A stretch of 64,000 nucleotides of DNA from Persephonella hydrogeniphila. Its GTDB lineage: Bacteria > Aquificota > Aquificia > Aquificales > Hydrogenothermaceae. The stretch covers positions 186,001 through 250,000 of the forward strand of contig NZ_OBEI01000002.1 in NCBI RefSeq assembly GCF_900215515.1, in the 5' to 3' direction. The stretch's first letter is position 1. The number at the start of each line of letters is the position of its first letter. The notes under the pieces were generated by a model. It ran no database searches, was not told where the DNA came from, and saw only the letters and a program-made list of their open reading frames with translations. Below, piece by piece: positions 4,372 to 24,829 of the stretch. The translations under genes were made by a program, and so were the position numbers.

Positions 4372-5456
4372 TGCTTAACAAGCATATTATCGAAAGACTT
4401 GAGAATATAGAACCAAAACTAAAAAAATTAGAGGCGGCTTTATCTGATCCTGAAGTATTGAAAGATCAGAAAAAGCTCCAGCAGATTGCCAGAGAGCATA
4501 AAGAGACAGAACATCTGTATTCCCTGTATAAAGAGTACAAAAAAGTACAGAAAGATATTGAGGAAGCAAAATCCCTCCTCAACAGTTCTGATGAGGAGAT
4601 GAGAATTCTGGCAGAAGAAGAACTGAAACAGCTACAAAAAAGAAAAGAAGAACTTGAAAAAGAGATACAGTTAGAGCTTATACCTAAAGATCCGAATGAT
4701 GAGAAAAATGTAATATTAGAGATAAGGCAGGGAGCCGGTGGGGATGAGGCAGCTTTATTCGCCGGTGAGCTTTTCAGGATGTACCAGAGATATGCAGAGA
4801 GACATGGATGGAAAGTTGAGGTTCTCAGCATACATCCTACAGATAAAGGAGGAATCAAAGAAGTAATAGCCCTTATTAAAGGGAAAGGAGCTTATTCAAG
4901 GCTAAAGTACGAAAGTGGAGTTCACAGGGTTCAGAGAGTGCCGGAGACAGAAAGCTCCGGTAGGATACATACATCTACAGCAACAGTTGCTGTTCTTCCT
5001 GAAGCTGAAGAGGTTGATATAGAGATAAAACCGGAAGAGCTAAAGATTGAAACAATGAGAGCTTCTGGAGCAGGAGGACAGCATGTTAATACAACCGACT
5101 CTGCTGTAAGAATAACGCACCTGCCTACAGGGATAGTTGTGAGCTGTCAGGATGAAAGATCACAGCTCCAGAATAGAGCAAAAGCTATGCAGATTCTCAG
5201 GGCAAGACTCAAAGATTACTATGACAGATTAGAAAGGGAAAAGATAGAAAAAGAGAGAAGATCACAGGTAGGAACAGGGGACAGATCTGAAAAAATAAGA
5301 ACGTATAACTTTCCTCAAAACAGGGTGACAGATCACAGAATCGGATACACATCACACAGAATACATGAGATATTAGATGGAGATCTTGACGAGATAATAG
5401 ACAGATTAATAGCAAAAGAACAGGAACAGAAACTCCTCGCGATAGAAAATGAGTAA
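4371..5456 (+). CDS. prfA: Peptide chain release factor 1
   Basis: RF1 recognises UAA and UAG stop codons and triggers peptide release. The 361 residues contain a long N-terminal coiled-coil domain rich in Lys and Glu, the stop-codon-reading tripeptide region ([13 protein letters not shown], a PxT motif) and the catalytic GGQ loop in [15 protein letters not shown] near residue 230. The Gln of GGQ is the residue methylated by PrmC in other bacteria. The start overlaps the rpmE stop (TAATG), so the two are translationally coupled. Length and motifs match RF1, not RF2: the codon-reading motif is PxT where RF2 has SPF. Confidence 0.97.
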
Positions 5457-5461
5457 TCCTT

Positions 5462-5535
5462 GCGCCCGTAGCTCAACTGGATAGAGCACGTGACTACGGA
5501 TCACGAGGTTGGGGGTTCGAGTCCCTCCGGGCGCG
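5462..5535 (+). tRNA. tRNA-Arg (anticodon ACG)
   Basis: A full cloverleaf can be folded. The acceptor is GCGCCCG paired with CGGGCGC, the D-arm is GCTC/GAGC, and the anticodon stem CGTGA/TCACG holds loop CTACGGA. The T-arm GGGGG/CCCTC holds TTCGAGT. The loop gives anticodon ACG (Arg, presumably read as ICG). The discriminator is G and the 3' CCA is not encoded (CTA follows), so CCA must be added after transcription. It lies 5 bases after the prfA stop. Confidence 0.95.
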
Positions 5536-5612
5536 CTAAAAAATCTAATCGTAATCATATTTTCCCTTAAACGATCGGCTTATATTAAATCAAAAAACAA
5601 AAGGGCAGGATT

Positions 5613-5819
5613 ATGGATATAATTGTGGCTGGTTTTATAGCTGTTTCAACTAATCTGGCTTCAAATAAAAATGAAAAATGTTTTCAGATTGATATATGTG
5701 CCTGTAAAAAATATGAATGCAGGGTATTTCCAACAACATGTATTCCGGAAGGATGGAAAATAGAAGATTTTACAAAATGTGAAAACAAACCTGATAAAAT
5801 AAAGATTCCTATGCATTAA
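5613..5819 (+). CDS. Small cysteine-rich hypothetical protein
   Basis: A 68-residue ORF lies between two tRNA genes; I do not recognise the family. Residues 1-17 are mildly hydrophobic. The rest carries six cysteines (23, 29, 31, 36, 43, 56), including a CxC and a spacing that could bind a metal or form disulfides. A modest purine-rich ribosome site (GGGCAGGA) precedes the ATG by about 5 bases. It ends 22 bases before tRNA-Ala. The number of cysteines makes a chance ORF less likely in such AT-rich DNA, but there is no homology argument. Confidence 0.45.
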   Translation: MDIIVAGFIAVSTNLASNKNEKCFQIDICACKKYECRVFPTTCIPEGWKIEDFTKCENKPDKIKIPMH

Positions 5820-5825
5820 ACATAG

Positions 5826-5831
5826 TATAAT
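5826..5831 (+). promoter_or_regulatory. -10 element for tRNA-Ala
   Basis: A perfect TATAAT lies 10 bases before the first base of tRNA-Ala, the expected place for a start of transcription a few bases upstream of the mature 5' end. No good -35 box is visible at 17 bases. Confidence 0.45.
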
Positions 5832-5841
5832 AATGTTATAT

Positions 5842-5917
5842 GGGGTCGTAGCTCAGCTGGGAGAGCGTCGCCTCGGCATGGCGAAGGTCGCGGGTTCGAA
5901 TCCCGCCGACTCCACCA
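5842..5917 (+). tRNA. tRNA-Ala (anticodon GGC)
   Basis: The cloverleaf folds with acceptor GGGGTCG/CGACTCC (one G-T pair), D-arm GCTC/GAGC, and anticodon stem TCGCC/GGCGA. The loop TCGGCAT gives anticodon GGC, and the T-arm is GCGGG/CCCGC with TTCGAAT. The discriminator is A and CCA is encoded. The last base directly abuts the stop codon of the converging sulfur-transporter gene. Confidence 0.96.
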
Positions 5918-6493
5918 TTAACTAAAGACGCGACCTGTTTGAGGCTCTTCTTCTTTCAGAATATATTTTCTTTCAAGCTTATCAACAATAAAAGCCAGTA
6001 AAACAAAACTCATACCGATAGCCATTCCTACAACAGTTTTTGCTAAACCTTCAAGGCCAAAAAGATCTGTTAATGTAGGGGCTCCAAGAGTTGAACCATG
6101 TAAGAAAGAAGTATGATATACAGGGTAGTACATAGTAAAAATAATACCTCCTATTACACCTGATACTATCCCTATAAGAGCATCCATTCTACCTTCTCCG
6201 ACAGCTTCAGGCATACTTCCCGGACAGTATCCTACTATTACCATACCTATACCAAATAGAAAACCTCCGATAGCAATACCAACAGGGTAAAACGGTTTTA
6301 TATGGAAATGTATCAGACCAAAATGCTCTGCAGAATAAAGCATAATAGCGCCGGCTCCCATGGCGATTAGCAGAGCTTTAGGAATTGTAAGATCTTTAAG
6401 AAGAAAAGCTCCTATAACCTTAGAGAGTCTATCAAGAAAGCCAAGCTGCATTATAGCTCCAAAGATCATTCCTAAAATAAAAACCTTTATCAT
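5918..6493 (-). CDS. YeeE/YedE-family sulfur transporter half (second subunit)
   Basis: This is a predicted inner-membrane permease of the YeeE/YedE (DUF395, TsuA-like) family, whose characterised members import thiosulfate or move other sulfur compounds. I start it at MIKVF, 191 residues, because an AGGAGG lies 8 bases upstream and the ATG overlaps the stop of the preceding gene (ATGA). Several hydrophobic helices are visible, and the conserved Cys lies in GYCPGS (Cys90), the sulfur-handling motif of this family. It pairs with the upstream half-size protein. An earlier in-frame start about 100 residues upstream would overlap the other gene in another frame and is unlikely. Family is firm; the substrate is inferred. 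Confidence 0.85.
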   Translation of the reverse strand: MIKVFILGMIFGAIMQLGFLDRLSKVIGAFLLKDLTIPKALLIAMGAGAIMLYSAEHFGLIHFHIKPFYPVGIAIGGFLFGIGMVIVGYCPGSMPEAVGEGRMDALIGIVSGVIGGIIFTMYYPVYHTSFLHGSTLGAPTLTDLFGLEGLAKTVVGMAIGMSFVLLAFIVDKLERKYILKEEEPQTGRVFS

Positions 6494-6987
6494 TCTGTGT
6501 ACCTCCTTCTGTAAATCAGATGTGCTGCCAGTAATCCACCTGCAAAAGCAAATATTCCAAAAAGAAGCGAACTTACAGCAAGCTGCATACCTCCACTGAA
6601 CATATGCCCTGATGTGCATCCTCCTGCCATCCTCGCTCCAAATATAAGGAGAAAACCTCCAAGAAAAGCGAATATTATTCTCTGCTTTCTGCCAAGTTTC
6701 AATTTTCTTTCCCAGTAAACAGGAGTTAATGTAAATCTGAATGTTTTTGTAAGGACAGATGTAATTACAGCCCCTAAAAATCCACCTGCCAGAAACCACA
6801 ACTCCCATCTTCCAGCTTTCTCAATCTCAGGAAGGTATTCATTATTTATCACGGGGAATATTAGATTTCCCAGATAAGGAAAGGCTGTTGATGCCCCTAT
6901 TGGCCTTTGTTCTGTGATAAAAACGATAAGATTAATAAGAGCAAGAAGAACACCTGCCCAGAACCAGTTAATTATTGGTTTTTCCAA
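6490..6987 (-). CDS. YeeE/YedE-family sulfur transporter half (first subunit)
   Basis: This is the first of two half-size membrane proteins (165 residues) related to YeeE/YedE. In full-length members two such halves are fused. It has about four hydrophobic segments and the family Cys in GGCTSGH (Cys124). The start is a TTG, chosen because GGAGG lies 7 bases upstream and no ATG fits. The stop overlaps the ATG of the second half by four bases, so the two are coupled and probably form one transporter. An inverted repeat lies just upstream at 7001-7018. In a window with sox genes, uptake or exchange of thiosulfate or sulfane sulfur is a reasonable inference. Confidence 0.85.
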   Translation of the reverse strand: MEKPIINWFWAGVLLALINLIVFITEQRPIGASTAFPYLGNLIFPVINNEYLPEIEKAGRWELWFLAGGFLGAVITSVLTKTFRFTLTPVYWERKLKLGRKQRIIFAFLGGFLLIFGARMAGGCTSGHMFSGGMQLAVSSLLFGIFAFAGGLLAAHLIYRRRYTE

Positions 6988-7000
6988 TTGTAACCTCCGG

Positions 7001-7018
7001 TTAGTTTTTTCTAACTAA
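7001..7018. promoter_or_regulatory. Inverted repeat upstream of the sulfur transporter pair
   Basis: TTAGTT and AACTAA form a perfect 6-base inverted repeat with a 6-base spacer. It lies 13 bases before the TTG start of the first transporter gene, in the short region between the divergent transporter and proS genes. It could be an operator; the site is AT-rich, so chance cannot be excluded. Confidence 0.3.
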
Positions 7019-7078
7019 AATTTATCAAAATTAGTTCTTTTATGTGTTTTACTTTTTAAATAAGCAAATTAACAAATC

Positions 7079-7087
7079 TGATATAAT
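7079..7087 (+). promoter_or_regulatory. Extended -10 promoter for proS
   Basis: The TGATATAAT element (TGn plus a perfect TATAAT) ends 25 bases before the proS ATG. There is no good -35 box, which is usual for extended -10 promoters. A ribosome site AGGAGAGG follows. Confidence 0.55.
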
Positions 7088-7112
7088 CTAAAAAAAACAC
7101 AGGAGAGGCTTA

Positions 7113-8807
7113 ATGAGAGCATCCCAGTACTTTATACCTACATTGAAAGAAGCACCTGCAGAAGCAGAAGTCCCCAGCCATATTTTTTTGATAAGGGCAG
7201 GTTATATAAGACAGCTTGCTGCAGGTCTTTATGAGTATCTACCCCTTGGTTTTAGAGTTTTAAAAAAGATTGAGAATATAATCAGAAAGTATATGGATGA
7301 TGCAGGGGCGTTAGAAGTGCTTCTTCCTATTTTGACACCTGCAGAACTCTGGCAGGAGACAGGAAGATGGGATGTTTACGGTAAAGAACTTTTTAGGGTT
7401 GAAGACAGGAAAGGGAGACTTTTTGCACTTGGACCTACCCATGAAGAGACAATAACAGATCTTGTAAGAAAAAATATAAGGTCTTATAAAGATCTTCCTA
7501 AAAATTTCTATCAGATACAGACAAAATTTAGAGATGAGGCAAGACCAAGGTATGGTCTTATAAGGGGAAGGGAGTTCCTTATGAAAGATGCTTACTCTTT
7601 TGATGTATCTGAAGAGATGGCTGTTAAGTCTTATGAAACGATGAAAGAAACCTACAGGAAGATATTTGATGAACTGGGGTTTGATTACCTTATGGTTGAG
7701 GCTGATACAGGAGCAATTGGAGGTAAATTTTCCCATGAGTTTGTGGTAAAAGTCCCTAACGGAGAAGCCCACATAGTTTACTGTGAAAAATGCGGTTATG
7801 CTGCGAATATAGAGGCTGCAAAATACGAGTTTGAGCTTGATAAATTGCCTCCTGAAGAAGAAAAACCGTTAGAAAAGGTGCATACTCCATCTGTTTCCTC
7901 TGTAGAAGATGTTTCCCGTTTTTTAGGAGTAGACAGCAAAAAGATAGTAAAAACACTTGTTTACATACTTGATGACGGAACGGCTGTAGCTGTTTTGATA
8001 AGAGGAGACAGGGAACTTAATGAAACTAAACTGATTAATTACTTTAATGCTATTGATGCCCATCTAGCATCCTCTGAAGAACTTGAAAGGTTAGGTATTG
8101 TGGAAGGATTTGTGGGTCCGATAGGGCTTAACATTCCTGTTTATGCAGATGTATCTGTAAAAGATCTTCATAACTTTGTTGTAGGAGCCAACGAAAAAGA
8201 TTACCACTTTATAAACGTAAATATCCCGAGAGATTTTAAACCTGTAGATTTCGTTGATTTTTCAACAGCAAAAGAAGGAGATCCGTGTCCAGTGTGTAAA
8301 TCCCCACTGAAAGAAGCAACAGGTCTTGAAGTGGGGCATATATTCCTGCTTGGAACTAAATATTCTGAGTCTATGAAGGCATACTTTGTTGATAAAGATG
8401 GGAGGGAAAAACCGATTATAATGGGATGCTATGGGATAGGAGTAAGTAGATTAATGGCTGCAGCTGTTGAGCAGAATCATGATGAAAACGGTATTATATG
8501 GCCTGAAAGTATAGCTCCTTTTAAACTTCATATACTTGCATTAAACATAAAAGACAACCAGATTAAAGATATAGCGGAGAAGATATACGATGAAGCAAAG
8601 AAATTAGGAGTGGAAGTCCTTTACGATGATAGAGATATATCTCCTGGGGCGAAGTTTAAAGATGCAGATCTGATAGGAATTCCCTACAGAGTGGTAGTAG
8701 GTAAAAAAGTGAAAGAAGGGAAAGTAGAGTTTCAGGAGAGGAAAACAGGAAATAAAGAAGAAATAGAGATAGACAAAATAAATGAGCTGTTAAAAAGGCT
8801 CCTGTAG
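7113..8807 (+). CDS. proS: Prolyl-tRNA synthetase
   Basis: It charges tRNA-Pro with proline. At 564 residues it has the bacterial (long) architecture: class II catalytic core with motif 1 (GLYEYLPLG), motif 2 (FRDEARPRYGLIRGREFLMKDAYSF) and motif 3 (MGCYGIGVSRLMAA). Between motifs 2 and 3 an INS-type editing domain (about residues 225-385) is present. The C-terminal anticodon-binding domain begins near residue 470. The start has a strong AGGAGAGG and an extended -10 promoter just upstream. The next gene starts 6 bases after the stop. Confidence 0.97.
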   Translation: MRASQYFIPTLKEAPAEAEVPSHIFLIRAGYIRQLAAGLYEYLPLGFRVLKKIENIIRKYMDDAGALEVLLPILTPAELWQETGRWDVYGKELFRVEDRKGRLFALGPTHEETITDLVRKNIRSYKDLPKNFYQIQTKFRDEARPRYGLIRGREFLMKDAYSFDVSEEMAVKSYETMKETYRKIFDELGFDYLMVEADTGAIGGKFSHEFVVKVPNGEAHIVYCEKCGYAANIEAAKYEFELDKLPPEEEKPLEKVHTPSVSSVEDVSRFLGVDSKKIVKTLVYILDDGTAVAVLIRGDRELNETKLINYFNAIDAHLASSEELERLGIVEGFVGPIGLNIPVYADVSVKDLHNFVVGANEKDYHFINVNIPRDFKPVDFVDFSTAKEGDPCPVCKSPLKEATGLEVGHIFLLGTKYSESMKAYFVDKDGREKPIIMGCYGIGVSRLMAAAVEQNHDENGIIWPESIAPFKLHILALNIKDNQIKDIAEKIYDEAKKLGVEVLYDDRDISPGAKFKDADLIGIPYRVVVGKKVKEGKVEFQERKTGNKEEIEIDKINELLKRLL

Positions 8808-8813
8808 GATAAA

Positions 8814-9668
8814 ATGGAAGATTTTATTTATCAGCTTTCTAAAGAGATACTTTCAGATCTTCATCTTGAAAAGATGCTTATAAACATATCAGATAAGATA
8901 AAAAGCTATATAGGAGCAGAAAGGGCGTCTCTGTTTGTGTATGATGAGAATGATAATACCCTTAATTCTGTTGTTTTACTGGCTGATACAGGGAAGATAA
9001 AGTCTGTACAGATTCCCGTTTCAAAAGAGAGTATAGCAGGGTACACAGCCCTTTCAGGAAAAATTCTAAATATAAAAAATGTTCATGATTTTGATGAGCT
9101 TTACAGAATAGATAGAGAACTCAGGTACCACAGCCACTGGCTTTATATTCCTGAAGTTAAGACAGAATCTGTGATATCTGTACCTATAACAAGGGATAGA
9201 AAGGTAATAGGAGTATTTCAGGCTATTAATAAAGAAGGGGGATTCACAGAAGAAGATGAAAAAAAATTGAAAAAACTGTCTCCTTTAATTGCTCTTGCTA
9301 TAGATAGGGCTATCTATCTAAACAGATTAGAGATGTTAAGAAGTATAGAAAAAACTGTATTAGAGAATATAAGAGAAGGGGTTGCACTGGTAGATCTAAA
9401 CCTGAAGGTAAAAGAGGTTAACTCGTCTTTTATAGAAATGCTTGGTTACAGATTTACAGAGGAGGATATAAAAGAAAAAAATATCTTTGATATTATTCCC
9501 CGTCTGAAAGAGTACAAAAAAAAGATAGATTTTGTAGTGGAAAATCAGATATCAGAAGAGATATCCCTTGAAATCATGAGAATAAAGATTATACCTATAA
9601 ACTGGGAATGCTTTACCAGAAAAGATATAAAATATCTGGCGTTGATTTTTAATTTTCCCCACGGGTAA
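8814..9668 (+). CDS. GAF-PAS sensory protein
   Basis: This 284-residue soluble protein has two sensory domains and no visible output domain. A GAF domain (about 15-165, with YIGAERASLFVYDE, SVISVPITRDRKVIGVFQAINK) is followed by a PAS domain (about 175-284, VLENIREGVALVDLN and IEMLGYRFTEED). No transmembrane segment, kinase or GGDEF domain is present. It is packed between proS and a PilB/GspE ATPase with 3-6 base gaps, so it is probably co-transcribed with the ATPase and could modulate it, for example by binding a cyclic nucleotide or small ligand. That link is inference from position. Confidence 0.8.
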   Translation: MEDFIYQLSKEILSDLHLEKMLINISDKIKSYIGAERASLFVYDENDNTLNSVVLLADTGKIKSVQIPVSKESIAGYTALSGKILNIKNVHDFDELYRIDRELRYHSHWLYIPEVKTESVISVPITRDRKVIGVFQAINKEGGFTEEDEKKLKKLSPLIALAIDRAIYLNRLEMLRSIEKTVLENIREGVALVDLNLKVKEVNSSFIEMLGYRFTEEDIKEKNIFDIIPRLKEYKKKIDFVVENQISEEISLEIMRIKIIPINWECFTRKDIKYLALIFNFPHG

Positions 9669-9671
9669 GGA

Positions 9672-11402
9672 ATGAAGGTAAAGGTAAAAAGGGCTTCTCC
9701 AGAGAAAAGTTTTATAGAACTGATAACAGAAAGGTTAGGGCTTTCTCCTGAAGAGATACAGAGATTTCAACAGATTGCAAAAAAAGAGAAAAAAAGTCTA
9801 TTACAGGTTCTTATTGAGCAGGGCTATTCTGAAGAAGAAATAGCAAAAATAAAAGCTGATTACTTTGGATATAAGTTCGATAGGCTAACCAATTACGTTC
9901 CTCCTGAGGATATAATCGATATATTCAGCAAAGAATTCCTGAAGGAAAGGCTTGTTCTTCCCCTTAACTATGAGGGAGGCATCCTCAGAATTGCTATGGT
10001 TGAACCTACAGATATGGTCAGTATAAACGAGGTGATAGAAAGGCTGAAAAAACATGGTATAGAAATAAATGAAGTAGATATAGTAGTAACAACAAAAAAG
10101 CAGATTCTTGACAAAATAGAGCTTATTTTTGAAGAAACAAAAAAGATAGAAGAACTGCTTAGTATTTTAAAAAGTGAATCGGAAATTTCTGTTGAAGAGA
10201 TAACAAAAGAAGAATCTATATCAGAGAAATCTTCACCTATAATAGCCCTTGCAAATAAAATTGTTGAAGATGCCTATAAAAAAGGTGCTTCAGATATACA
10301 TATACAGCCAACAGAAAAAAGTTCTATTATAAGAATGAGGATAGATGGAGATCTTACAGATTATCTTGTTCTTCCCAAATATGCCCACGAACCTCTTATA
10401 ACAAGATTTAAAATAATGTCAAATATGAAAATAGACGAAAAAAGAGTTCCACAGGATGCAAGGATAAATTTTGAGAGGTACAATCCAAACATAAAAGTAG
10501 ATCTTAGGGTTTCTACAGTTCCTTCTATATATGGAGAAGACCTTGTAATGAGACTTCTTCTTAAAACAGGAGCTATACTTGATTTAACAAAGCTTGGTTT
10601 TTCAAAGAGACATCTTGATCTATACAGAGAAACAATTAGAAAGCCTTACGGGATAATCCTTCATGTGGGACCTACAGGCTCTGGAAAAACAACCACTCTT
10701 TACTCTGCTTTAAAGGAGATAGATACCCCAGAGAAAAAGATTATAACGGTAGAAGATCCGGTAGAGTATACACTGGGAGGCTCTATAGTACAGACAAGTA
10801 TAAATCCACTGGCAGGTTATACATTTGCAAAGGCAATAAAAGCGTTTCTCAGGCACGACCCTGATGTAATGCTTGTTGGAGAGATAAGAGATCTTGAAAC
10901 AGCAAGGATTGCTGTTGAGGCTTCTCTTACAGGACATCTGGTATTCTCCACGCTTCATACCAATGATGCAGTTTCGACTATAACGAGACTTGAGGAAATG
11001 GGAATAGAAAGCTATCTTCTTGCAGATTCTTTACTTCTTATATGTGCCCAGAGACTTGTTAAAAAGATATGTAATAACTGTAAAACAGAGTATAAACCAT
11101 CCAAAAAAGAAGAGATTGTGATAAAAAATGCCGGATTTGAGGTAAATGAGAACACAAAACTCTATAAAGGGTTAGGATGTAAAATATGCAATTTTACCGG
11201 ATATAAAGGAAGAACGGGAATACACGAGCTTTTAAAAGTAGATGAAGAGATAAAAGGTATGCTTATAGAGAAAAAATCAACGGAAGAGATCAAACAGACT
11301 GCTATACAGAAAGGGATGAAAACTCTAAGACAGGACGCTGTGATGAAGGCTCTTGAGGGGATTACAACAATAGATGAAGTGATTAAGGTAACTATACAGT
11401 GA
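9672..11402 (+). CDS. pilB: Type IV pilus / type II secretion assembly ATPase (PilB/GspE)
   Basis: This hexameric ATPase powers pilus extension or type II secretion. Its 576 residues begin with a MshEN/GSPII_E N-terminal domain (about 15-150). The core follows with Walker A GPTGSGKTTT near residue 334, the Asp box, Walker B (MLVGEIRDLETA) and the His box (STLHTNDA). A zinc-binding tetracysteine lies near 460-510 (CNNC and CKIC). Choosing PilB over GspE needs genome context, since no other pilus or secretion gene is in the window. The 3' end overlaps the converging TauE gene by 11 bases. Confidence 0.9.
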   Translation: MKVKVKRASPEKSFIELITERLGLSPEEIQRFQQIAKKEKKSLLQVLIEQGYSEEEIAKIKADYFGYKFDRLTNYVPPEDIIDIFSKEFLKERLVLPLNYEGGILRIAMVEPTDMVSINEVIERLKKHGIEINEVDIVVTTKKQILDKIELIFEETKKIEELLSILKSESEISVEEITKEESISEKSSPIIALANKIVEDAYKKGASDIHIQPTEKSSIIRMRIDGDLTDYLVLPKYAHEPLITRFKIMSNMKIDEKRVPQDARINFERYNPNIKVDLRVSTVPSIYGEDLVMRLLLKTGAILDLTKLGFSKRHLDLYRETIRKPYGIILHVGPTGSGKTTTLYSALKEIDTPEKKIITVEDPVEYTLGGSIVQTSINPLAGYTFAKAIKAFLRHDPDVMLVGEIRDLETARIAVEASLTGHLVFSTLHTNDAVSTITRLEEMGIESYLLADSLLLICAQRLVKKICNNCKTEYKPSKKEEIVIKNAGFEVNENTKLYKGLGCKICNFTGYKGRTGIHELLKVDEEIKGMLIEKKSTEEIKQTAIQKGMKTLRQDAVMKALEGITTIDEVIKVTIQ

Positions 11403-14293: not shown

Positions 14294-15131
14294 AAGGGTT
14301 TACAGAGATGTTGAATTTTTGACATCTTTAAGACCTTTCAGGAATTATCTTAATACAGATTCTCTAAATAAAGCTTCTCACTATATCTATGAAAGTTTCA
14401 AACAGTACTCAGACTGTGTCTCTTTTCAGGAGTTTGAAGCCTATGGGAATACTTATAGAAATGTTCTCTGCTCAATAAATACAGAAAAGGAAGAAAGGAT
14501 TATTATAGGAGCTCATTATGATGTTGCAGGAGATACTCCAGGGGCTGATGATAATGCAAGCTGTATTGCTGGTTTGCTTGAGATCCTAAGGCTTCTTTAC
14601 GATAAAAAAACCCGTCACCGTATAGATTTTGCAGCCTATGTTCTTGAAGAACCTCCTTTTTTTGGAACAGAAAAAATGGGTAGTTTTATACATGCAAAAA
14701 GTCTGTATGAGAACAGTGTGAAGATCAAAGTGATGATATCCCTTGAGATGATAGGATTTTTTTCAGATAAAAAAAACTCACAGCAGTTTCCTCTGCCTTT
14801 TATGAGGTTGTTTTATCCTGATACAGGTAACTTTATAGGAGTTGTAGGTAATACCTTTCAGCGTAAGATAACAGTAAGGATAAGGGATTTGATGAGAAAA
14901 GGTTCAGATATACCGGTTTATTCTTTAAATGCACCCTCTATAATTCCGGGAGTGGATTTTTCAGACCACAGAAATTTTTGGCGTTTTGGATATAATGCTG
15001 TGATGATAACAGATACGGCATTTTATAGAAATCCGAACTACCATAGAAGAACAGATACAATAGCAACACTGGATTTTGATAGGATGTACAGTGTTATAAA
15101 ATCGGTTGCTTACGCTGTGCTAAATCTGTGA
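14274..15131 (+). CDS. M28-family zinc peptidase
   Basis: This is a predicted co-catalytic zinc aminopeptidase of the M28 family (285 residues). The metal and catalytic residues can be followed: HYD (His81, Asp83), PGADDNAS (bridging Asp92/93), LEEPPFFGTE (Glu125/126) and a C-terminal His in NYHRRTDT. No signal peptide is obvious, so it may act in the cytoplasm, unlike many secreted relatives. The start lies inside the methyltransferase gene (20-base overlap). The 3' end overlaps the converging diguanylate cyclase gene by 12 bases. Confidence 0.82.
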   Translation: MEQKGIERVYRDVEFLTSLRPFRNYLNTDSLNKASHYIYESFKQYSDCVSFQEFEAYGNTYRNVLCSINTEKEERIIIGAHYDVAGDTPGADDNASCIAGLLEILRLLYDKKTRHRIDFAAYVLEEPPFFGTEKMGSFIHAKSLYENSVKIKVMISLEMIGFFSDKKNSQQFPLPFMRLFYPDTGNFIGVVGNTFQRKITVRIRDLMRKGSDIPVYSLNAPSIIPGVDFSDHRNFWRFGYNAVMITDTAFYRNPNYHRRTDTIATLDFDRMYSVIKSVAYAVLNL

Positions 15132-16388
15132 GCTATATACTACTATCCTGTTTCTACCTTTTATTTTTGCTTCGTAAAGTGCTTTGTCTGCTTTGTTAAT
15201 AAGTTCATCGATATTTCTCGTATTATCTGGAATTTCTGAGTATCCTCCTATACTGACTGTTATTTTTTTAAATGGGGAGCTCTGATGGGGAATGTTTTTA
15301 TTTAGAATATCATTATGAATCTCACCAGCTAAAATAGAGGCCTTGTTACCGTCTACATTAGAGAATACAACGACAAACTCTTCTCCTCCCCATCTGCTTG
15401 CTATATCTGTAGGTCTCCTTGTATGCTTTTTGATAATAGCTCCTACCTCTCTTAGAACCAGATCTCCCTTCAGATGTCCGTATTTGTCATTATAATTTTT
15501 GAAATAATCAATATCTATCATAAACACAGATACAGGGAAGTTTTCCCTTATAGCCCTCTTAAGCTCCCTTTCAAAGAACTCTTTTAGCTTTCTTCTGTTT
15601 GCAAGACCTGTAAGTTCATCATACTCAGACAGAACTTTTAGTTTTCCTGTTAATTTTTCTAACTCATTCTTATCTAAATAAATTTTTAAAGAAGATAAAA
15701 AGTCTTTTCTTATGTAATACTCTAAGATGTATCCTCCAATCATGCCTATTATGTTAGCTGAGCCGAGGAAGAAAAGGTTTGATATCAAATATTTAGAGTC
15801 TGAGCGCAAAAAATACAGGTCTACAGCAAGATATATAAGGATGATGATAAGAGAAGAGATAGAACTGTAAATAAATGGAATACCTGAGACGGTATACACA
15901 AAAAATATCACTAAAAATATACCTGCATAGTAAACCTGGGCTTCAAAAGGAGAGATTACGAACATCATTCCTATTATAGATAAACCTGCCATTACAGCTA
16001 TAAAACAGTACGCTACATACACTTTGAAATGGTCTTTGCTTAGAAAAAGATAAAAAATAAAGGGAGATAAAATAAGGAGAGTAAAAGCCCTTATACCCCA
16101 CAGCTGTCTGTATATATCTGGAAAAAGGATGAGATCAGCAATTCCAAAGAATATATAGATCATTATGCCAAAGATAAGCATTACTTTTATTCTGAATATA
16201 GATTTTGCAAAGTAGTATTCCTGAAAGAGTTCTTCAAGCTTTTCAGGAAAGCATATATAAATTCTGTTTTTTCTGGAAAGCTCTTTCTCTATTACATTTT
16301 TTAAGGATTCTATGTTGTAGTTCTTAAACAGATCATGATACCACCCTTTACTCTTATTTATTAGCTTGTCTATTTCTTTGTCAAGCAT
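15120..16388 (-). CDS. Membrane-anchored diguanylate cyclase (GGDEF)
   Basis: It makes cyclic di-GMP from two GTP. The 422 residues start with a soluble stretch of about 65 residues. About six hydrophobic segments (roughly 66-230) follow that could be a MASE-like sensor, then a short coiled region and a GGDEF domain (about 255-420). The active-site motif is GGEEF (near residue 336). An RPTD placed five residues before it is a canonical RxxD inhibitory site, so product feedback is likely. The substrate-binding DIDYFKNYND and LANRRKL segments are intact. The signal sensed is unknown. Confidence 0.9.
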   Translation of the reverse strand: MLDKEIDKLINKSKGWYHDLFKNYNIESLKNVIEKELSRKNRIYICFPEKLEELFQEYYFAKSIFRIKVMLIFGIMIYIFFGIADLILFPDIYRQLWGIRAFTLLILSPFIFYLFLSKDHFKVYVAYCFIAVMAGLSIIGMMFVISPFEAQVYYAGIFLVIFFVYTVSGIPFIYSSISSLIIILIYLAVDLYFLRSDSKYLISNLFFLGSANIIGMIGGYILEYYIRKDFLSSLKIYLDKNELEKLTGKLKVLSEYDELTGLANRRKLKEFFERELKRAIRENFPVSVFMIDIDYFKNYNDKYGHLKGDLVLREVGAIIKKHTRRPTDIASRWGGEEFVVVFSNVDGNKASILAGEIHNDILNKNIPHQSSPFKKITVSIGGYSEIPDNTRNIDELINKADKALYEAKIKGRNRIVVYSSQI

Positions 16389-17470: not shown

Positions 17471-19366
17471 CTAAGCTGATTTTTTTATAGGGATAGGTTC
17501 TTTCAGATAATACCCCTGACCGTATATAATCCCCATCTTGATAACTTTTTTCAGTATATACTCTGAGTGTATATACTCAGCTATAACATCAATGCCTAAT
17601 TCATCTGCAAAGTATTTGATCGCTTTAACAATTGCTATAGATCTTGGATTAATATCAATATCTTTGATGAGGGAACCGTCTATTTTTAAAAATTCCGGGT
17701 GTAGTTCTACAATATGTGCAAAATTTGAGTATCCTGTTCCAAAATCGTCTATTCCTATACTGCATCCTATATCTTTAATTCTCATTATTTTTTCTTTAAA
17801 ATAGCTGTAATCTTCTATATCTTCTGATTCTAATATTTCTATCGTCAGCCTACTGGCAAGTTTTTTGTTGATAATGAGAAAATCCAGATAATCCACTATG
17901 TCGTCATTGTATATATCAAGGGCTGAAAGATTCATGCTTATTCTCATATTTGGATTATCCAGTAAGGTTTTTATATTGTATTCAATCACTTTTTTTGTTA
18001 GATCTACATGTACGTAGGTTCTTCTTATAGAATTTAAGAACTGATGGGGATAAATGAGTTTTCCATCTTTTGAGACAATTCTTACAAGAGATTCAAATTT
18101 AACAACCTTTCCGGTTCTTAGATTATATATAGGCTGATACCAGCATACAACTCCGTTATGATCTATAGCTTCCTTTATAACAGATATACCTTTGTCGTTT
18201 GCTTCAAGCCCTTTATCATAAACTTCCACTCTATTTCTTCCGTTCTGTTTTGCCCTGTAAAGAGCCATGTCAGCTCTTTTAATAGCCTGATCTATATCTA
18301 TATTCTCTCTATACAGAGATATCCCTATGGAAACTGTCACTTTCATTTTTATTTTGTTGTAGGAGATTACATTTCGGGAAACCTCATTTTTTATCCTGTT
18401 TGCCAGCTGGATAATTTTGTATCTGTAATCTTCAGATAGGGGATTTGATCTGATAAAAAGAAGAAACTCCTCTCCTCCGTATCTGATCAGTATATCTTCA
18501 TCTTCTCTAATACAGCTTTTTAATCTTTTTGCCACTTCTTTAAGAACATAATCTCCAACATCATGTCCGTAGGTATCGTTGATCCTTTTAAAGAAATCTA
18601 TATCGATTACCATCACAGTATAGGGGTATTTTTTTATACTGTCTAAATTCTCATACATAAATAATCTGTTACAAACCCCAGTTAAAGGATCTATGTACAT
18701 TTTTTTTATATCTTTTTTATATCTTATAAACTGGTAAATGGATATCAGTATGGAAAAAACGATAAAGGCTGTTACAGCAAGAATAAACTCTCTTATCCTG
18801 TCTAAAATTCCCTGTATTTCCTTCAGTTTTTTGATAGAAAAATCAATAACAAATGCTCCTTTAACAGTACCTTTTTCTCTGATAGGTTTAATTAAAGTAA
18901 TCCATAAACCTGTGTAATCAGACTGTTTTATAACAACTGTTTCTTGTTTTTCTCTCAGCCTTTTAAAAGTATCTCCTAATGCATTAAAAGGTTGCCAGTA
19001 AGATGCTCTATCTTCTTTTGAAAAATCAGCAAGGTACCTTATTTTTCCATTTTTATCAAAGTAAAGTATGTAGGCGTACTTGACGTCGTCATTCAGAAAT
19101 ATAGAAATCCGGTCTTCTATCCATTCTCTGAATCTCTTATTTTTAAAGAGTTTTTTTAGACCAACCTTTGAGGCGTCATTTTCTATATGAACAATTACTT
19201 TGTCTAATCCTTTTGATACCGGAGGAATGATAGCATTTTTTATTATGCTATCTTCTATAATCTCCTGAACTTTAGGAACCATAAAGTAGATTGACATAAG
19301 AATTCCCAGTAAAATAAAAAAGATAGGTATATAATCAAAAAGCAGTCTGCGATCTCTTTTTTTCAC
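17471..19366 (-). CDS. Membrane GGDEF-EAL c-di-GMP enzyme with periplasmic sensor
   Basis: This 631-residue protein combines synthesis and breakdown domains for cyclic di-GMP. A first membrane helix (about 10-30), a periplasmic sensor domain (31-190) and a second helix (191-213) lead to GGDEF (about 225-385) and EAL (about 395-625). GGEEF (297-301) is intact, but the RxxD inhibitory site is not: EDED stands at its position. The EAL residues look intact: ESLVR (425-429), MNLS, IEILE, DDFGTGYS (540-547), KIDG, AE at 596-597 and QGYY. It is the last gene of a set with a TonB-type receptor and a small periplasmic protein, overlapping the latter by 4 bases. Confidence 0.9.
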   Translation of the reverse strand: MKKRDRRLLFDYIPIFFILLGILMSIYFMVPKVQEIIEDSIIKNAIIPPVSKGLDKVIVHIENDASKVGLKKLFKNKRFREWIEDRISIFLNDDVKYAYILYFDKNGKIRYLADFSKEDRASYWQPFNALGDTFKRLREKQETVVIKQSDYTGLWITLIKPIREKGTVKGAFVIDFSIKKLKEIQGILDRIREFILAVTAFIVFSILISIYQFIRYKKDIKKMYIDPLTGVCNRLFMYENLDSIKKYPYTVMVIDIDFFKRINDTYGHDVGDYVLKEVAKRLKSCIREDEDILIRYGGEEFLLFIRSNPLSEDYRYKIIQLANRIKNEVSRNVISYNKIKMKVTVSIGISLYRENIDIDQAIKRADMALYRAKQNGRNRVEVYDKGLEANDKGISVIKEAIDHNGVVCWYQPIYNLRTGKVVKFESLVRIVSKDGKLIYPHQFLNSIRRTYVHVDLTKKVIEYNIKTLLDNPNMRISMNLSALDIYNDDIVDYLDFLIINKKLASRLTIEILESEDIEDYSYFKEKIMRIKDIGCSIGIDDFGTGYSNFAHIVELHPEFLKIDGSLIKDIDINPRSIAIVKAIKYFADELGIDVIAEYIHSEYILKKVIKMGIIYGQGYYLKEPIPIKKSA

Positions 19367-19806
19367 AGGTTCTTTTCCGAATCTGCGAATTTTTTGTACT
19401 TGTCAGGTATGCTTATCCCATAATGCTTTAATCTCTCTTGTATAAAAATCAGATTAGGCCTCCCCTTATGCCAGTAAAATGCAGCGATTGCATTTTTGTA
19501 CTCTTTCAGTAGATAATATCTTGTAACTATCATTTTTTTGCCCCTGCATCTGTTATCTTTCAGTCTCTCTCCGGCTATTATTAAGTCTGCATTAATACAT
19601 TCATAAACAGGTAATAATATTTTAGAATATCTAAAAATATATTTCATGTTATCTGTGGTGTACACTTTTATTCCGTACTGTTTTCCTGTTATAACAGAGG
19701 ATACTTCGGAAAGAATTGCCGATTCTATTTTTTTGGCTTCCTCTCCCTGAAAAGCCCAAGCCCCTATTGTGTATATAATAAGAAGAATTTTTATTATTCT
19801 CCACAT
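19363..19806 (-). CDS. Small periplasmic protein (YfiR-like position and size)
   Basis: This 147-residue protein has an N-terminal signal peptide (IIKILLIIYTIGAWA) and no other membrane segment, so it is probably periplasmic. Its C-terminal half (TRYYLLKEY, IAAFYWHKGRPNLIFIQERL) resembles what I recall of small periplasmic partners of TonB receptors and GGDEF proteins. It recalls YfiR in size and location, but I cannot assign it to YfiR (DUF4154) with certainty. Two cysteines, in YECI and NRCRGK, might form a disulfide. It lies one base after the receptor gene and overlaps the GGDEF-EAL gene by four bases, so the three are surely co-expressed. Confidence 0.65.
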   Translation of the reverse strand: MWRIIKILLIIYTIGAWAFQGEEAKKIESAILSEVSSVITGKQYGIKVYTTDNMKYIFRYSKILLPVYECINADLIIAGERLKDNRCRGKKMIVTRYYLLKEYKNAIAAFYWHKGRPNLIFIQERLKHYGISIPDKYKKFADSEKNL

Positions 19807-19807
19807 A

Positions 19808-21670
19808 CTAAAATTCCTTTACAAATGTTAAAACAACTCTCCTATCCTCAAGGTTGTATCTAAAATCTGGGTCTTTAAAAGCTGGTGTTTTTAGTTCTTT
19901 GTTAAGCAGGTTATAACCCCTTATCTGTAAGGATGCATTCTTAAAAACTGTTAAACTGATTCCAGCGTCTAAATCATAACCGTTTTTTATATCTCTGTCT
20001 GAAAATTGGTATCCTTCTCTGTATATGAGCTCCGAAAAACAAGAAAACTTTCCGTTTTTGTAGCTTAATTTGAGAAATCCTCCTTTAGACGGCGCTGTTT
20101 TGTAATTTTTGTCGTTTAGATGAACAGAAAAATAGTTCGTTCTGATCTGAATATTCCCTATATTTTTTATATAATCGATAGAAAAAAATCTGTATTTTAG
20201 TACAACATCGGCGTTATAGTAGGTGTAGCTTACAGGATCTATCATAATGGAGTTATCTACTCTTATATATCCTCCTGTAAGTATAACTCTTCCCAGATTA
20301 TTTTTTACTGAGAGCTCTGCTGTTATAGATCTGTTTTTTTGTTTTGTTAGCTCTCTATTTGTAAATATTTCTACAAAATAGGGTGGTGTGTAATACTTTG
20401 AAAAGAATGTCTTAAAGTAATTCCCTTCAGAAAGTATAGAGATAAGACCTACCCTCCATAGGAAATTATCTATCTCTTTTCCGTATCTTCTGCTCATATT
20501 TTCGTATTTTATTCCTCCTACAATACCCGCTTTCGGAAAGATATTAAGAATATCTTCTATGAATATAGACCGGTAATACTCACTGTTTTCATCTTTTAAG
20601 ACTCCAGAATTTCTGATATCAACCAATTTGTAAGCTGTTCTCTGAAATTTTCCTCCAAAGGATAACAGATTTTTTTTAAATTTAATATTTCCGGAAAAAT
20701 CTGCCCCGACCTTGCTACTATTAATATCTCTACTCCAGTAAACCACCGGTTCTACTGGATTTACAGCTATAACTGGATTTTTTATATTTCCTTCCTGTAC
20801 TGTTTCAGTAGATATTCTGTCGGCGTAAAATCTTACCTTCAGATTTAGCTCCTTAGAGATTAACTTGCCTACAGATATATAACCGTGTGAATTCCTAAAA
20901 TCTGACATATCAGGTGAGTAATAAAGAGTATCCCCTCTAAATCTGTTTGAATCTTTTACGGCTATTCCTGTTTCGAGTAGCCAGCCGTTAAGGTAAAAAC
21001 TTGAGTACCCGTAGTAGTATCTGTCGTCTATTTCTGTCTCTTTACCAGAAAAGTATTTTTTACTTTTGTACAGCAGTTTGTTTATAAAAAAAGAAAAGGA
21101 AGATATATCTGAAAGCTCCCATCCTGTATAAAAATTCAATGAATAACCTCCCCGTGAATTAAGGGATAATCTTGATCTTCCCCCATTTTCCCTCTCTGGT
21201 TTTTTGGTGTAGATTTTTATTATCATACCGGCAGCTTCATTGTTGAATTTTATAGCCGATTCTCCCTGATATATCTCTATATGCTCTACAAAGTCCAGAG
21301 GTATATCTGCCCACAGTGGAAGTGCTGTTTTCCGGAATACAGCTGATATTTCATGGTCGTTAATGTATATTCTTACAGTTGAGTTCTCTAAAGGATAAAT
21401 TGTTGCGTAAGACAGTATTTTTTCTCCGTAATGATTTCTCTGAAGGGAAAAATATCTTAAAGATTTCAGCACATCAGAGAGTCTATGATACTGGTATCTT
21501 TTTATCTCTTCTCTGGTTATTATAATAAGATGACCTTCAGATTCCTGACGGGTCTGCTTGTAAAGTTTTGAGACATTTTCGTACTTGTACAACAGTTCTT
21601 CAAGGGATTGTCCATTTGATGAACAGATGATTGAAAGACTAAGTAAGATTATCCACCTTTTTTTCTCCAT
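19808..21670 (-). CDS. TonB-dependent receptor-like outer membrane protein
   Basis: This is a 620-residue predicted outer-membrane beta-barrel. After a signal peptide (residues 1-20), a plug domain (about 25-155) holds a segment reading LYKYENVSKLYKQT, then IIITREEIKRYQYHRLSDVLKSL, the pattern of plug domains in this group. The rest is rich in alternating aromatic strands and ends in Phe (TFVKEF), as barrel proteins do. No clear TonB box precedes the plug. Its coupling to a periplasmic protein and a GGDEF-EAL protein suggests a sensing role rather than only uptake. The 5' end overlaps mobA by 22 bases. Confidence 0.82.
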   Translation of the reverse strand: MEKKRWIILLSLSIICSSNGQSLEELLYKYENVSKLYKQTRQESEGHLIIITREEIKRYQYHRLSDVLKSLRYFSLQRNHYGEKILSYATIYPLENSTVRIYINDHEISAVFRKTALPLWADIPLDFVEHIEIYQGESAIKFNNEAAGMIIKIYTKKPERENGGRSRLSLNSRGGYSLNFYTGWELSDISSFSFFINKLLYKSKKYFSGKETEIDDRYYYGYSSFYLNGWLLETGIAVKDSNRFRGDTLYYSPDMSDFRNSHGYISVGKLISKELNLKVRFYADRISTETVQEGNIKNPVIAVNPVEPVVYWSRDINSSKVGADFSGNIKFKKNLLSFGGKFQRTAYKLVDIRNSGVLKDENSEYYRSIFIEDILNIFPKAGIVGGIKYENMSRRYGKEIDNFLWRVGLISILSEGNYFKTFFSKYYTPPYFVEIFTNRELTKQKNRSITAELSVKNNLGRVILTGGYIRVDNSIMIDPVSYTYYNADVVLKYRFFSIDYIKNIGNIQIRTNYFSVHLNDKNYKTAPSKGGFLKLSYKNGKFSCFSELIYREGYQFSDRDIKNGYDLDAGISLTVFKNASLQIRGYNLLNKELKTPAFKDPDFRYNLEDRRVVLTFVKEF

Positions 21671-22266
21671 AAATATTTGATCCTCTCATAATCCTCCGGC
21701 GTGTTTATACTCCAGTAAGTCAGAGCATCTTTATCTATTTTTTTTATCTCTCTTTCCTCTATTTTTTTAATATTCAGATTTTCCACCCATTTGTAAAGGG
21801 ATCTTACATTCTTTTCGTAAATACTCTCTCCAATTTCAATAGATTTTTGGGTGTATAGTGTATTTAAAAACTGGAGCTTTCCGCTTACTACAGGTATTAC
21901 TGCATCATAACTGTTTATTTTTCTGTAAAAAAATGGGATTAACTCCTGATTAAGAAAAGGTGTATCACAGGTGGCGATAAAAACAAGCTCATGTTTTATA
22001 TATTCCCTGCAGCTGATAATTCCGTTTAACGGTCCTGCATAAGGATTTTTATCTTTGATGAATGATATTTCAGCATCTATTTCTTTTAGATGGGAGAGGT
22101 ATAACTCTCCTTCCTTATTCCCTGATACTACTATCTGATTACAGTAAGTGGACAGTTTTTCTGCTATTATTCTGATAAATGCTTTTTTCCCTAATCTGAG
22201 GAAGGCTTTATCCTTCCCCATCCTCTTACTCTGGCCACCGGCAAGTAAAATGGCAGATATTTTCAT
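21649..22266 (-). CDS. mobA: Molybdenum cofactor guanylyltransferase MobA
   Basis: MobA attaches GMP to molybdopterin to make the guanine dinucleotide form used by DMSO-reductase-family enzymes. I start at MKISAILLAGG (205 residues). That ATG overlaps the fur-like stop (ATGA), and it places the nucleotide-binding signature LLAGGQSKRMGKDKA at the usual distance from the N terminus; an upstream ATG would add six residues inside the previous gene. The metal-site region FIATCDTPFL is present. It is embedded in the run between a Fur-family gene and a TonB-type receptor; mobB is elsewhere, at 47148. Confidence 0.9.
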   Translation of the reverse strand: MKISAILLAGGQSKRMGKDKAFLRLGKKAFIRIIAEKLSTYCNQIVVSGNKEGELYLSHLKEIDAEISFIKDKNPYAGPLNGIISCREYIKHELVFIATCDTPFLNQELIPFFYRKINSYDAVIPVVSGKLQFLNTLYTQKSIEIGESIYEKNVRSLYKWVENLNIKKIEEREIKKIDKDALTYWSINTPEDYERIKYLWRKKGG

Positions 22267-22694
22267 TTTTGGCAGTCTTTGCATAAACCAAATATCTCAA
22301 GTCTGTGAAACTCAGGTTTAAACTTGTATTTTTTACATATTTTGTTCTGGAGTTTTTCTATCTCTTCAGAATGAAACTCGATAATCTTTCCACATTTTCT
22401 GCATATTAGATGATCATGGTGTTCTTTAAGTGCAACTTCATAAATTGTTTTATTTTTGAACTTTATTACTTCGTTTACGTATCCTAAGTTTTTAAGAATA
22501 TCTAATGTTCTGTAAACTGTTGCCCTTGATACATCAATATTTTTTGATCTGATTTTATGAACAAGATCTTCTATCTCAAAATGTCCTTTGGTAGAAAGAA
22601 TAACTTTAAATATCTTTTCCCTCTGGGGGGTAAATTTCATTCCGGATTTTTTTATCGTTTCTTTGAACTCTTTTAAGGCTTTTCTTTTGTTCAT
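22263..22694 (-). CDS. Fur-family transcriptional regulator
   Basis: This 143-residue metal- or peroxide-sensing repressor of the Fur superfamily has a winged helix (residues 15-85, FTPQREKIFKVI, VSRATVYRTLDIL) and a dimer domain with metal ligands. These include the HHDH cluster (92-95), CRKC (98-101), EFHRLEIFG and a C-terminal CKDC (138-141). The two CxxC pairs form the structural zinc site as in Fur and PerR. Whether it is Fur, PerR or Zur cannot be decided from sequence alone. The gene overlaps mobA and lies 3 bases after a flavin reductase gene. Confidence 0.9.
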   Translation of the reverse strand: MNKRKALKEFKETIKKSGMKFTPQREKIFKVILSTKGHFEIEDLVHKIRSKNIDVSRATVYRTLDILKNLGYVNEVIKFKNKTIYEVALKEHHDHLICRKCGKIIEFHSEEIEKLQNKICKKYKFKPEFHRLEIFGLCKDCQK

Positions 22695-23314: not shown

Positions 23315-24829
23315 CTAATCTGCTATTACAGTTTTATTTTTACCTGTTTTTTTCGCTTCGTAAAGAGCTGTGTCTGCTCTTCTGATTAGAGATTTTATAC
23401 TATCTCCCTCTTTATAAAAAGATATACCTATACTTATTGTAAGATGTTTTATATTCTCAAAAATATGATTTTCCACTGTTTTTCTTATTTTTTCTGCTAT
23501 TTTATAAGCATCTGCTTTATTTTTTATCGGGACAAGTACCATAAACTCTTCCCCTCCCCATCTGGCAAATATATCAGATCTCCTTATATGTTTTTTTATC
23601 ACCTGTACAATCTCTTTTAATACTTTGTCTCCCACCTGATGTCCATAAATATCGTTTATCTGTTTAAAGTTATCAATATCAAACATCAGTATTGCAAACT
23701 TTGTTCCGTATCTTTCTGCCCTGCTTATCTCTCTTTCTAAAAATCTCTCAAATGCATACCTGTTGTATATACCTGTCAGCTGGTCTACTGTAGCAAGATT
23801 TCTGAGATCCTCTTCAAGTTTTTTCCTGTCTGTAATATCAACAACACTTCCTATACCGCAATTTTTATCCCGAAAGGATATAGTCTGTGAAGTAATCTCT
23901 ACCCACTTTATTTTATTTTTGCCTGTAACTACTTTTATCACATATTTTTCTGTAAACCTCTCACCTGAGTTTCTCCTTTTCGCTATCTCTGCAACTTTTC
24001 CTCTGTATTCAGGATGTACAAAATCAAAAATACTTGAACCTATAAGACTTCCCGGTGTTGTTTCTAAAATAGATGCCATAGTAGGATTGATATACATAAA
24101 CCTTCCGCTGCACTGTAAGAATATCCCTACAGGTGTTGTCTCAAGCAAAACTCTGAATATCTCATCTCCTAAATCCATTTCTTTTTTTTCTATAAAACTC
24201 CACAGGAGAAAGCTGTTATCTAATACCGATTTTTTTACTGTGATATATCTGTTAGGAAAATGGAGAAGATACTCTTCTCCTTCAGGGATTTCTTCCTGTC
24301 GTGAAAAGATATCTTTTATCTCTTCTGGGAATAATGATCTTATTTTATCTATATGTTTATCAAAAAAGAAATCTGGCTCTTTTTTTATACCAAACATACT
24401 TAAAAATTTTTTGTTTGTATATCTGACTATTCCTTTTGTATCAAAAATGATAATTCCCTCTCCAAGAAGATCCAAGACTCTTTTAAAATCAGGAAGACTA
24501 AACTCTTTTTCTGCAAAAAATCGATGTTTTTGAATAAAAAAATCTTTATCTTTGATAACATTCATCAAAACGTATCTGTCACCACAGCTATTTAAATGGT
24601 ACAATCCTGTAAACTCTTTATTTTTTGTGTTCTTAAGAACCCTTATGGGACATACATACGGCATAACTTTGTAGCAAGGGGAAGATAGATTATTGAAAAC
24701 CTGATAACATTTTTTCCCCTCGATATTCCCGTAAATCTTTCTGGAATTTCTGTTAGAAAAAACTATATTAAAATCACGGTCTATAACAATTACAGGGTAA
24801 TTGCTATCATATTTTTTTGCAAAATCCAT
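23315..24829 (-). CDS. PAS-containing diguanylate cyclase
   Basis: This 504-residue soluble protein has PAS-like sensory modules followed by GGDEF. The first module (about 10-100) contains cysteines (KCYQVFN, CYKV, CPIRV) in the pattern of Cys-rich PAS domains. A second PAS lies near 110-210 (GEGIIIFDTKGIVRYTNKKF) and a third near 225-340 (TTPVGIFLQCSGRFMYINPTMASIL) with a PAC-like tail. The GGDEF domain starts near residue 350, with active-site GGEEF near 426 preceded by RRSD at the RxxD inhibitory position. No membrane helix is seen, so it probably senses a cytoplasmic or redox signal. It is the first gene of the seven-gene run. Confidence 0.9.
   Translation of the reverse strand: MDFAKKYDSNYPVIVIDRDFNIVFSNRNSRKIYGNIEGKKCYQVFNNLSSPCYKVMPYVCPIRVLKNTKNKEFTGLYHLNSCGDRYVLMNVIKDKDFFIQKHRFFAEKEFSLPDFKRVLDLLGEGIIIFDTKGIVRYTNKKFLSMFGIKKEPDFFFDKHIDKIRSLFPEEIKDIFSRQEEIPEGEEYLLHFPNRYITVKKSVLDNSFLLWSFIEKKEMDLGDEIFRVLLETTPVGIFLQCSGRFMYINPTMASILETTPGSLIGSSIFDFVHPEYRGKVAEIAKRRNSGERFTEKYVIKVVTGKNKIKWVEITSQTISFRDKNCGIGSVVDITDRKKLEEDLRNLATVDQLTGIYNRYAFERFLEREISRAERYGTKFAILMFDIDNFKQINDIYGHQVGDKVLKEIVQVIKKHIRRSDIFARWGGEEFMVLVPIKNKADAYKIAEKIRKTVENHIFENIKHLTISIGISFYKEGDSIKSLIRRADTALYEAKKTGKNKTVIAD

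Follow-up and report, generated by a model that had tools for sequence, protein, structure and literature searches.

A TonB-type receptor, a small secreted protein and a GGDEF-EAL enzyme kept together in Aquificota and Campylobacterota: a candidate YfiBNR-like relay across the cell envelope

Introduction

The YfiBNR system (TpbB/DgcN system) of Pseudomonas aeruginosa and Escherichia coli consists of an outer-membrane protein, a small secreted protein with the YfiR fold, and a GGDEF enzyme of the inner membrane that carries a periplasmic sensor, all encoded in one gene cluster. We describe here a cluster of three genes, called the triad below, in a 64,000-nucleotide stretch of Persephonella hydrogeniphila DNA (contig NZ_OBEI01000002.1, positions 186,001 to 250,000; the window) from an Aquificota genome of 1,995,795 bases. 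A similar set of components is found in it, and the small protein is alike in its predicted fold. There are also clear differences. YfiB is an OmpA-like lipoprotein that binds peptidoglycan, while the triad has a Plug-containing TonB-type receptor; YfiN is built of CHASE8, HAMP and GGDEF without EAL, while the triad enzyme lacks CHASE8 and HAMP and adds EAL; YfiR is a member of Pfam DUF4154, while the triad small protein falls outside that family; and the order receptor-small protein-enzyme is not that of YfiBNR. We propose, with a probability of about 0.68, that the triad is a YfiBNR-like transenvelope relay with a TonB-type receptor in the position of YfiB.

Two other systems share parts of this design. 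In the NspS-MbaA polyamine signalling of Vibrio cholerae, a secreted adaptor resembling a binding protein acts on a GGDEF-EAL membrane enzyme, as may be the case here; NspS is a full-length, two-lobed binding protein and no outer-membrane receptor is known to take part, whereas the 147-residue protein of the triad is modeled as one YfiR-type lobe. In FecA-FecR-FecI, as is proposed for the triad, a TonB-type receptor passes a signal through the periplasm; in contrast to that system, the triad has no STN domain on the receptor and no anti-sigma or sigma factor, and its output is cyclic diguanylate (c-di-GMP) or a kinase. In a literature search judged by titles and abstract openings, with subscription journals thinly covered, no description of such a triad was found.

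The genes of the triad are as follows.

19808-21670, minus strand: TonB-dependent-receptor-like outer-membrane protein, 620 residues (Plug PF07715, E 5.6e-7; family alignment of 115 relatives)
19363-19806, minus strand: small secreted protein, 147 residues, predicted YfiR-type single lobe (AlphaFold2, Foldseek, VIA-align)
17471-19366, minus strand: inner-membrane sensor-GGDEF-EAL protein, 631 residues, GTG start (Pfam GGDEF and EAL)

Conservation of the Triad

A sequence-only reading of the window had picked out these three neighbors, separated by one base and then overlapping by four, and had likened them to YfiBNR with a TonB-type receptor and an added EAL domain. Coordinates and spacing are confirmed, and the likeness has become stronger than at that first reading because the small protein has a predicted YfiR-type fold and the triad is kept together in other genomes. 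With the small protein as query, 54 matches are obtained in 43 of 136 Aquificota genomes, and a profile search finds it in at least 54 of 298 Campylobacterota genomes, a lower bound since no more than 13 candidates per genome were scored. A scan of species genomes yields 52 loci, of which record titles place 17 in Aquificota and 35 in Campylobacterota; it relied on one peptide pattern and says nothing on absence in other phyla. Gene neighborhoods were read for each of the 54 matches in Aquificota, for the 35 contigs from Campylobacterota, and for 60 of the 64 further Campylobacterota matches (genomes and loci are numbered G and L; the other four are the matches in G411 and G405, the second one in G404, and one in G136 that already counts as L099). 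Seven loci in which the small open reading frame was not called (L075, L076, L130, L135, L184, L193, and L197) were dropped before counting, and removal of identical sequences left 139 distinct small proteins, 51 from Aquificota and 88 from Campylobacterota.

In 127 of these 139 distinct copies the receptor gene is the immediate upstream neighbor and has the same orientation, which places the grouping beyond chance. Five more copies are at contig ends, and among the seven others L034, L054, and L182 have a receptor or small-protein gene that is broken or miscalled. A sensor-GGDEF-EAL gene follows directly downstream in 103 of the 139. Outside the triad the gene content varies between loci: the upstream flanks of 120 loci fall into 58 similarity groups, and the downstream flanks of 111 loci into 54, in a grouping that, unlike the 139 count, kept duplicate sequences. 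Thus the three genes, far from being usually found apart, stay adjoined while their flanks change. The same order is kept between the window and relatives whose small proteins are down to 22% identical, indicating more than recent descent.

The three genes are inherited as a unit. Across 104 triads, pairwise protein distances correlate at 0.84 for receptor and small protein, 0.84 for small protein and sensor enzyme, and 0.86 for receptor and sensor enzyme, values that in themselves do not imply contact. Four same-genus genomes in this set have two triads each, and between the two copies every one of the three proteins shows a distance of 0.72-0.77. When all eight genomes with more than one triad are considered, the three proteins often, though not in every case, have their nearest relatives at one shared locus. 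The host genome itself has a second, diverged triad, L031 (G000:C3:60000-76000, about 3576-9777), in which two tandem receptor genes precede the small protein; its sensor-GGDEF-EAL gene contains one in-frame stop and may therefore be a broken copy or reflect a sequence error. G213 contains three small-protein loci, and a sensor-GGDEF gene lies close to one of them, L193.

The Small Secreted Protein

Two parts of the small protein are referred to below.

19753-19806, minus strand: signal peptide, residues 1-18, assigned by eye from the sequence
19405-19491, minus strand: most conserved part, residues 106-134, from column counts over 135 sequences and secondary structure

Besides its signal peptide this protein appears to have only a single small domain, as had been read from the sequence, and the domain is predicted to be one YfiR-type lobe. 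The AlphaFold2 model, based on a 38-sequence alignment, has a mean predicted local distance difference test score (pLDDT) of 93.1. When it is compared with the Protein Data Bank (PDB) by Foldseek, the top match is YfiR (4zhu_B, E 4.8e-4), and the first 18 ranks comprise 13 YfiR chains, four of a Rhodothermus binding protein, and for the rest 3lkv. In VIA-align comparisons, YfiR 4xjy_D (Z 9.8, root-mean-square deviation (rmsd) 3.3, 122 residues aligned) ties with 3lkv (Z 10.1, rmsd 6.6, 139 aligned) and 3lft (Z 10.0, rmsd 5.5, 132 aligned). In the structural study of YfiR, 3LFT and 3LKV are likewise given as its closest structural neighbors (PMC4655355). The protein had been open to being an unrelated transport component; judged from the model, it looks like a YfiR-fold protein instead.

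Residues 106-134 form a beta hairpin, with W112, G115, R116, and P117, then a helix and a loop leading to P134. The strongest columns of the family (A108, W112, R116, P117, L126, I131, and P134) map in the predicted structure to this last hairpin and to the helix and loop that come after it. According to the same study, a hairpin, a helix and a loop form the conserved partner-binding face of YfiR (PMC4655355); the conserved elements of the small protein correspond to them, being matched by the order of elements and not by superposition of residues.

Ordinary family searches find little. The small protein of the window has no Pfam match at E<=1, and Pfam and NCBIfam scans yield no meaningful family. 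The DUF4154 model, PF13689, has no match in the host genome, nor in any of the 136 Aquificota genomes. Searched against PDB chain sequences, the small-protein profile gives nothing convincing (best E 0.18), and plasmid records contain no match. A comparison of profiles, with 28 sequences on the DUF4154 side and signal peptides removed, aligns 123 columns in order with a score of 25.8, compared with 17.2 for the best of 60 column shuffles, 14.4 for the alignment in reverse, and 12-15 for three other families. An earlier comparison that kept the signal peptides (probability 92) was set aside, as it was partly due to the shared signal peptide. Taken on these profiles, the small protein is likely, but not proven, to be a remote homologue of YfiR/DUF4154.

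The Receptor

The receptor starts with a signal peptide, followed by an N-terminal signature and the plug.

21527-21607, minus strand: N-terminal signature in the place of the TonB box, about residues 22-48, from motif counts
21227-21547, minus strand: plug domain, residues 42-148, above the Pfam cut-off

The sequence-only reading assigned both a plug and a barrel to this protein. The plug stands, whereas the Pfam barrel model PF00593 has no match in the window receptor at E<=1, where Plug alone is found and STN is absent; that a barrel follows is suggested by the length, the C-terminal Phe, and the relatives. Among 115 receptors linked to small proteins, mean conservation is 2.25 in the segment that follows the signal peptide and 2.36 in the plug as against 1.61 in the barrel. 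In that segment, a T..[ED]..G motif occurs in 109 of the 115 and in one of 58 other plug receptors, and an L..LL motif in 73 of 115 and four of 58. Conversely, a VTA-like TonB-box motif is present in eight of the 115 linked receptors and 37 of the 58 controls; most of these controls were taken from the top of the plug match scores, which biases them towards canonical receptors. Judging by these motifs, the linked receptors seem to have no ordinary-looking TonB box; alternatively, the signature in its place might be a divergent one. The host genome does encode TonB and ExbD. The N-terminal element may be the part that the receptor presents to its partner.

Pairing of this kind is also found around true members of DUF4154. 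Such a gene occurs in 22 of the 298 Campylobacterota genomes, and among 37 neighboring proteins from these loci a TonB barrel is matched in 14, GGDEF in 13, CHASE8 in four, and HATPase in three. For example, at a Sulfurimonas locus (L138, 4752-9819) a TonB receptor gene diverges from a true DUF4154 gene, and a gene for a PAS hybrid histidine kinase comes after the latter. These sets resemble the triad in combining a YfiR-family gene, a TonB receptor, and a membrane output, and differ from it in having a true DUF4154 protein, a canonical Pfam barrel in many cases, other sensors, and a variable gene order. In seven of 11 receptor-like neighbors of true DUF4154 genes, a stretch like SL.ELL lies at the corresponding place, after the signal peptide. 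The pairing of YfiR-type proteins with TonB receptors is thus a wider theme.

The Sensor Enzyme and Its Exchangeable Outputs

The enzyme is organized as follows.

18722-19366, minus strand: periplasmic sensor domain of PAS/Cache type between two long helices, residues 1-215 (AlphaFold2 and structure comparison)
18230-18697, minus strand: GGDEF domain, residues 224-379 (Pfam E 9.4e-42)
18464-18478, minus strand: GGEEF, residues 297-301, from the sequence
17495-18178, minus strand: EAL domain, residues 397-624 (Pfam E 2.8e-55)

A sensor between two helices, with intact GGEEF and EAL residues, had been expected from the sequence and is borne out by the motifs and the predicted fold. The first 220 residues are modeled by AlphaFold2 with a pLDDT of 92.1 as a pair of long helices enclosing a domain of PAS/Cache type, closest to the extracellular domain of WalK (Z 13.7, rmsd 2.8, 141 aligned). 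The EAL motif reads ESL, and all eight residues that we take from RocR to be catalytic, placed by spacing, are present (E425, N479, E510, D540, D541, K561, E597, and Q617). The product-inhibition motif RxxD is not found in the window enzyme, and CHASE8 and HAMP are not among its Pfam matches at E<=1. In an alignment-based count of 102 complete dual relatives, 96 have GG[DE]EF, 99 have the eight EAL residues, and 94 have both.

While this sensor is coupled to GGDEF-EAL in most loci, nine complete Campylobacterota genes couple it to GGDEF alone. In L170 (59-3438) it is joined to a histidine kinase (HisKA and HATPase), directly followed by a receiver-EAL gene; by such a two-component path the same receptor pair would act on c-di-GMP breakdown. 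L177, L181, and L191 are laid out like L170, the only one of them scanned for domains. L162 has a kinase at the place of the sensor enzyme with a sensor that the profile does not recognize, and the kinase of L125 is cut by the contig end, its matches being below Pfam cut-offs. At three loci of one Aquificaceae genus (L033, L040, and L078) the gene matching the sensor profile is a GGDEF gene upstream of the receptor, and the same holds for L034, whose receptor gene is split.

Neighboring Genes

Two more genes precede the receptor gene on the minus strand.

21649-22284, minus strand: MobA-like nucleotidyltransferase, overlapping the receptor gene by 22 bases; the order is repeated in other genomes of the genus
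22263-22694, minus strand: Fur-family regulator, overlapping the MobA-like gene by 22 bases

The whole order is therefore Fur-family, MobA-like, receptor, small protein, and sensor-GGDEF-EAL, with overlaps of 22 and 22 bases, a gap of one base, and an overlap of four bases. This overlapping arrangement of the Fur and MobA-like genes with the receptor gene (21649-22694) is found within the genus only, and it is a weak hint of a metal-related signal. The genes upstream of the triad in Sulfurimonas, judged by eye, are LepA- and ComF-like. Neither these nor the Fur/MobA neighbors in the genus pointed to a firm ligand. Two more GGDEF genes flank the triad in the window, at 15120-16388 and 23315-24829, one with a multi-helix membrane part and the other with PAS domains.

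The Proposed Relay and Its Alternatives

In the relay that we propose, the receptor would meet a ligand or a state at the outer membrane, and its periplasmic side, made of the N-terminal signature and the plug, would alter its grip on the YfiR-like small protein. The small protein, through which the receptor would thus signal to the enzyme, would bind the PAS/Cache-type periplasmic domain of the latter, and this binding would set the balance between synthesis and breakdown of c-di-GMP. By analogy with YfiBNR, the small protein would most likely restrain the enzyme and the receptor relieve the restraint. The physical contacts, the direction of the effect on c-di-GMP, and the ligand are what we infer in this scheme.

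Several observations weigh against the relay. In PMC4655355, YfiB and YfiN are considered to share one face of YfiR, which constrains any three-part scheme modeled on it. None of 32 members of the small-protein family matches DUF4154 by Pfam, and the probability of the profile comparison without signal peptides is only 18. The distance correlations are also expected from linkage and species history. At L172 and L175 a receptor and a small protein occur with no adjoining sensor gene. Furthermore, the sensor profile matches in 53 of the 136 Aquificota genomes, 42 of which also hold the small protein, and ten of the remaining 11 were examined (G096 was left out). In five of them, all Aquificaceae (G059, G061, G062, G014, and G024), the sensor-GGDEF-EAL gene lies directly behind a gene for another secreted protein of 123-127 residues. 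In G072 and G073 the sensor enzyme comes after an efflux-type outer-membrane protein and MobA, and both receptor and small protein are missing at that place. The contig edge is reached in G066, in G013, and at one of the two G012 loci; the other G012 locus lacks both partners. The small protein is therefore not indispensable to the sensor enzyme. At the same time, an enzyme that is viable without this adaptor, and an adaptor slot that can be refilled, argue for modularity.

The loci with the alternative protein are L293 (2761-6112), L294, L295, L298, and L299. It has no family match and may resemble part of a phosphate-type binding protein; the idea that it is a relative of YfiR was dropped at a profile score of 14.7 over 23 columns. 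The gene before it, where complete, encodes a protein of 343-358 residues, which in L293 has a sub-threshold Porin_O_P match (E 0.0063) and in L298 none.

Probably the nearest competitor of the relay, though an unlikely one, is a ligand relay like NspS-MbaA, in which the receptor would import a compound by means of TonB, the small protein would bind it as a one-lobe binding protein of the periplasm, and the loaded form would switch the GGDEF-EAL enzyme. TonB and ExbD are available in the host, the enzyme shares a GGDEF-EAL layout with MbaA, and the predicted fold of the small protein equals half of an ABC-type binding protein, as the 3lkv and 3lft matches indicate. Yet a single lobe provides no cleft between two lobes, the usual TonB box seems to be missing from the linked receptors, and the conserved residues are on the hairpin and helix that in YfiR serve for binding of partners.

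It is still less probable that the cluster is a nutrient-uptake cassette, made of a receptor and a periplasmic import helper, with which the c-di-GMP enzyme is merely co-regulated. The plug domain, the overlapping Fur-family and MobA-like genes in the genus, and the receptor-small protein pairs of L172 and L175 would suit such a cassette; retention of the same sensor while outputs change, persistence of the triad among varying flanks, and the predicted regulator fold of the small protein speak against it. We regard as very improbable indeed that the enzyme senses small molecules directly through its PAS/Cache domain, with the receptor and the small protein tuning another part of the pathway. 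The sensor fold does resemble ligand-binding Cache domains as well as WalK, and G072 and G073 hold the enzyme without the pair, but the small protein accompanies the sensor in most Aquificota genomes, and in five of the remaining 11 its position is taken by the other small secreted protein.

Implications

The YfiBNR-like relay may be one case of something more general. Tentatively, and at somewhat less than even odds, the triad would belong to an undescribed class consisting of an outer-membrane barrel, a one-lobe adaptor, a PAS/Cache sensor, and interchangeable outputs. The receptors of such a class would be dedicated signallers in which the TonB box is replaced by a helix-like signature, L..LL...T..E..G, that docks the adaptor. 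Its front half would be exchangeable as well, so that in the five Aquificaceae genomes a barrel-like protein and the unrelated protein of 123-127 residues would drive the sensor.

Signalling from the outer to the inner membrane is understood in few systems, and in Aquificota and Campylobacterota the triad would connect c-di-GMP, the switch between sessile and motile life, with a TonB-type receptor. An unannotated protein family gains a predicted fold and a testable role, and the exchanges found in nature, of outputs as well as of receptor-adaptor pairs, would allow the interfaces to be mapped. The triad also offers a candidate input for many GGDEF-EAL proteins that are without one.

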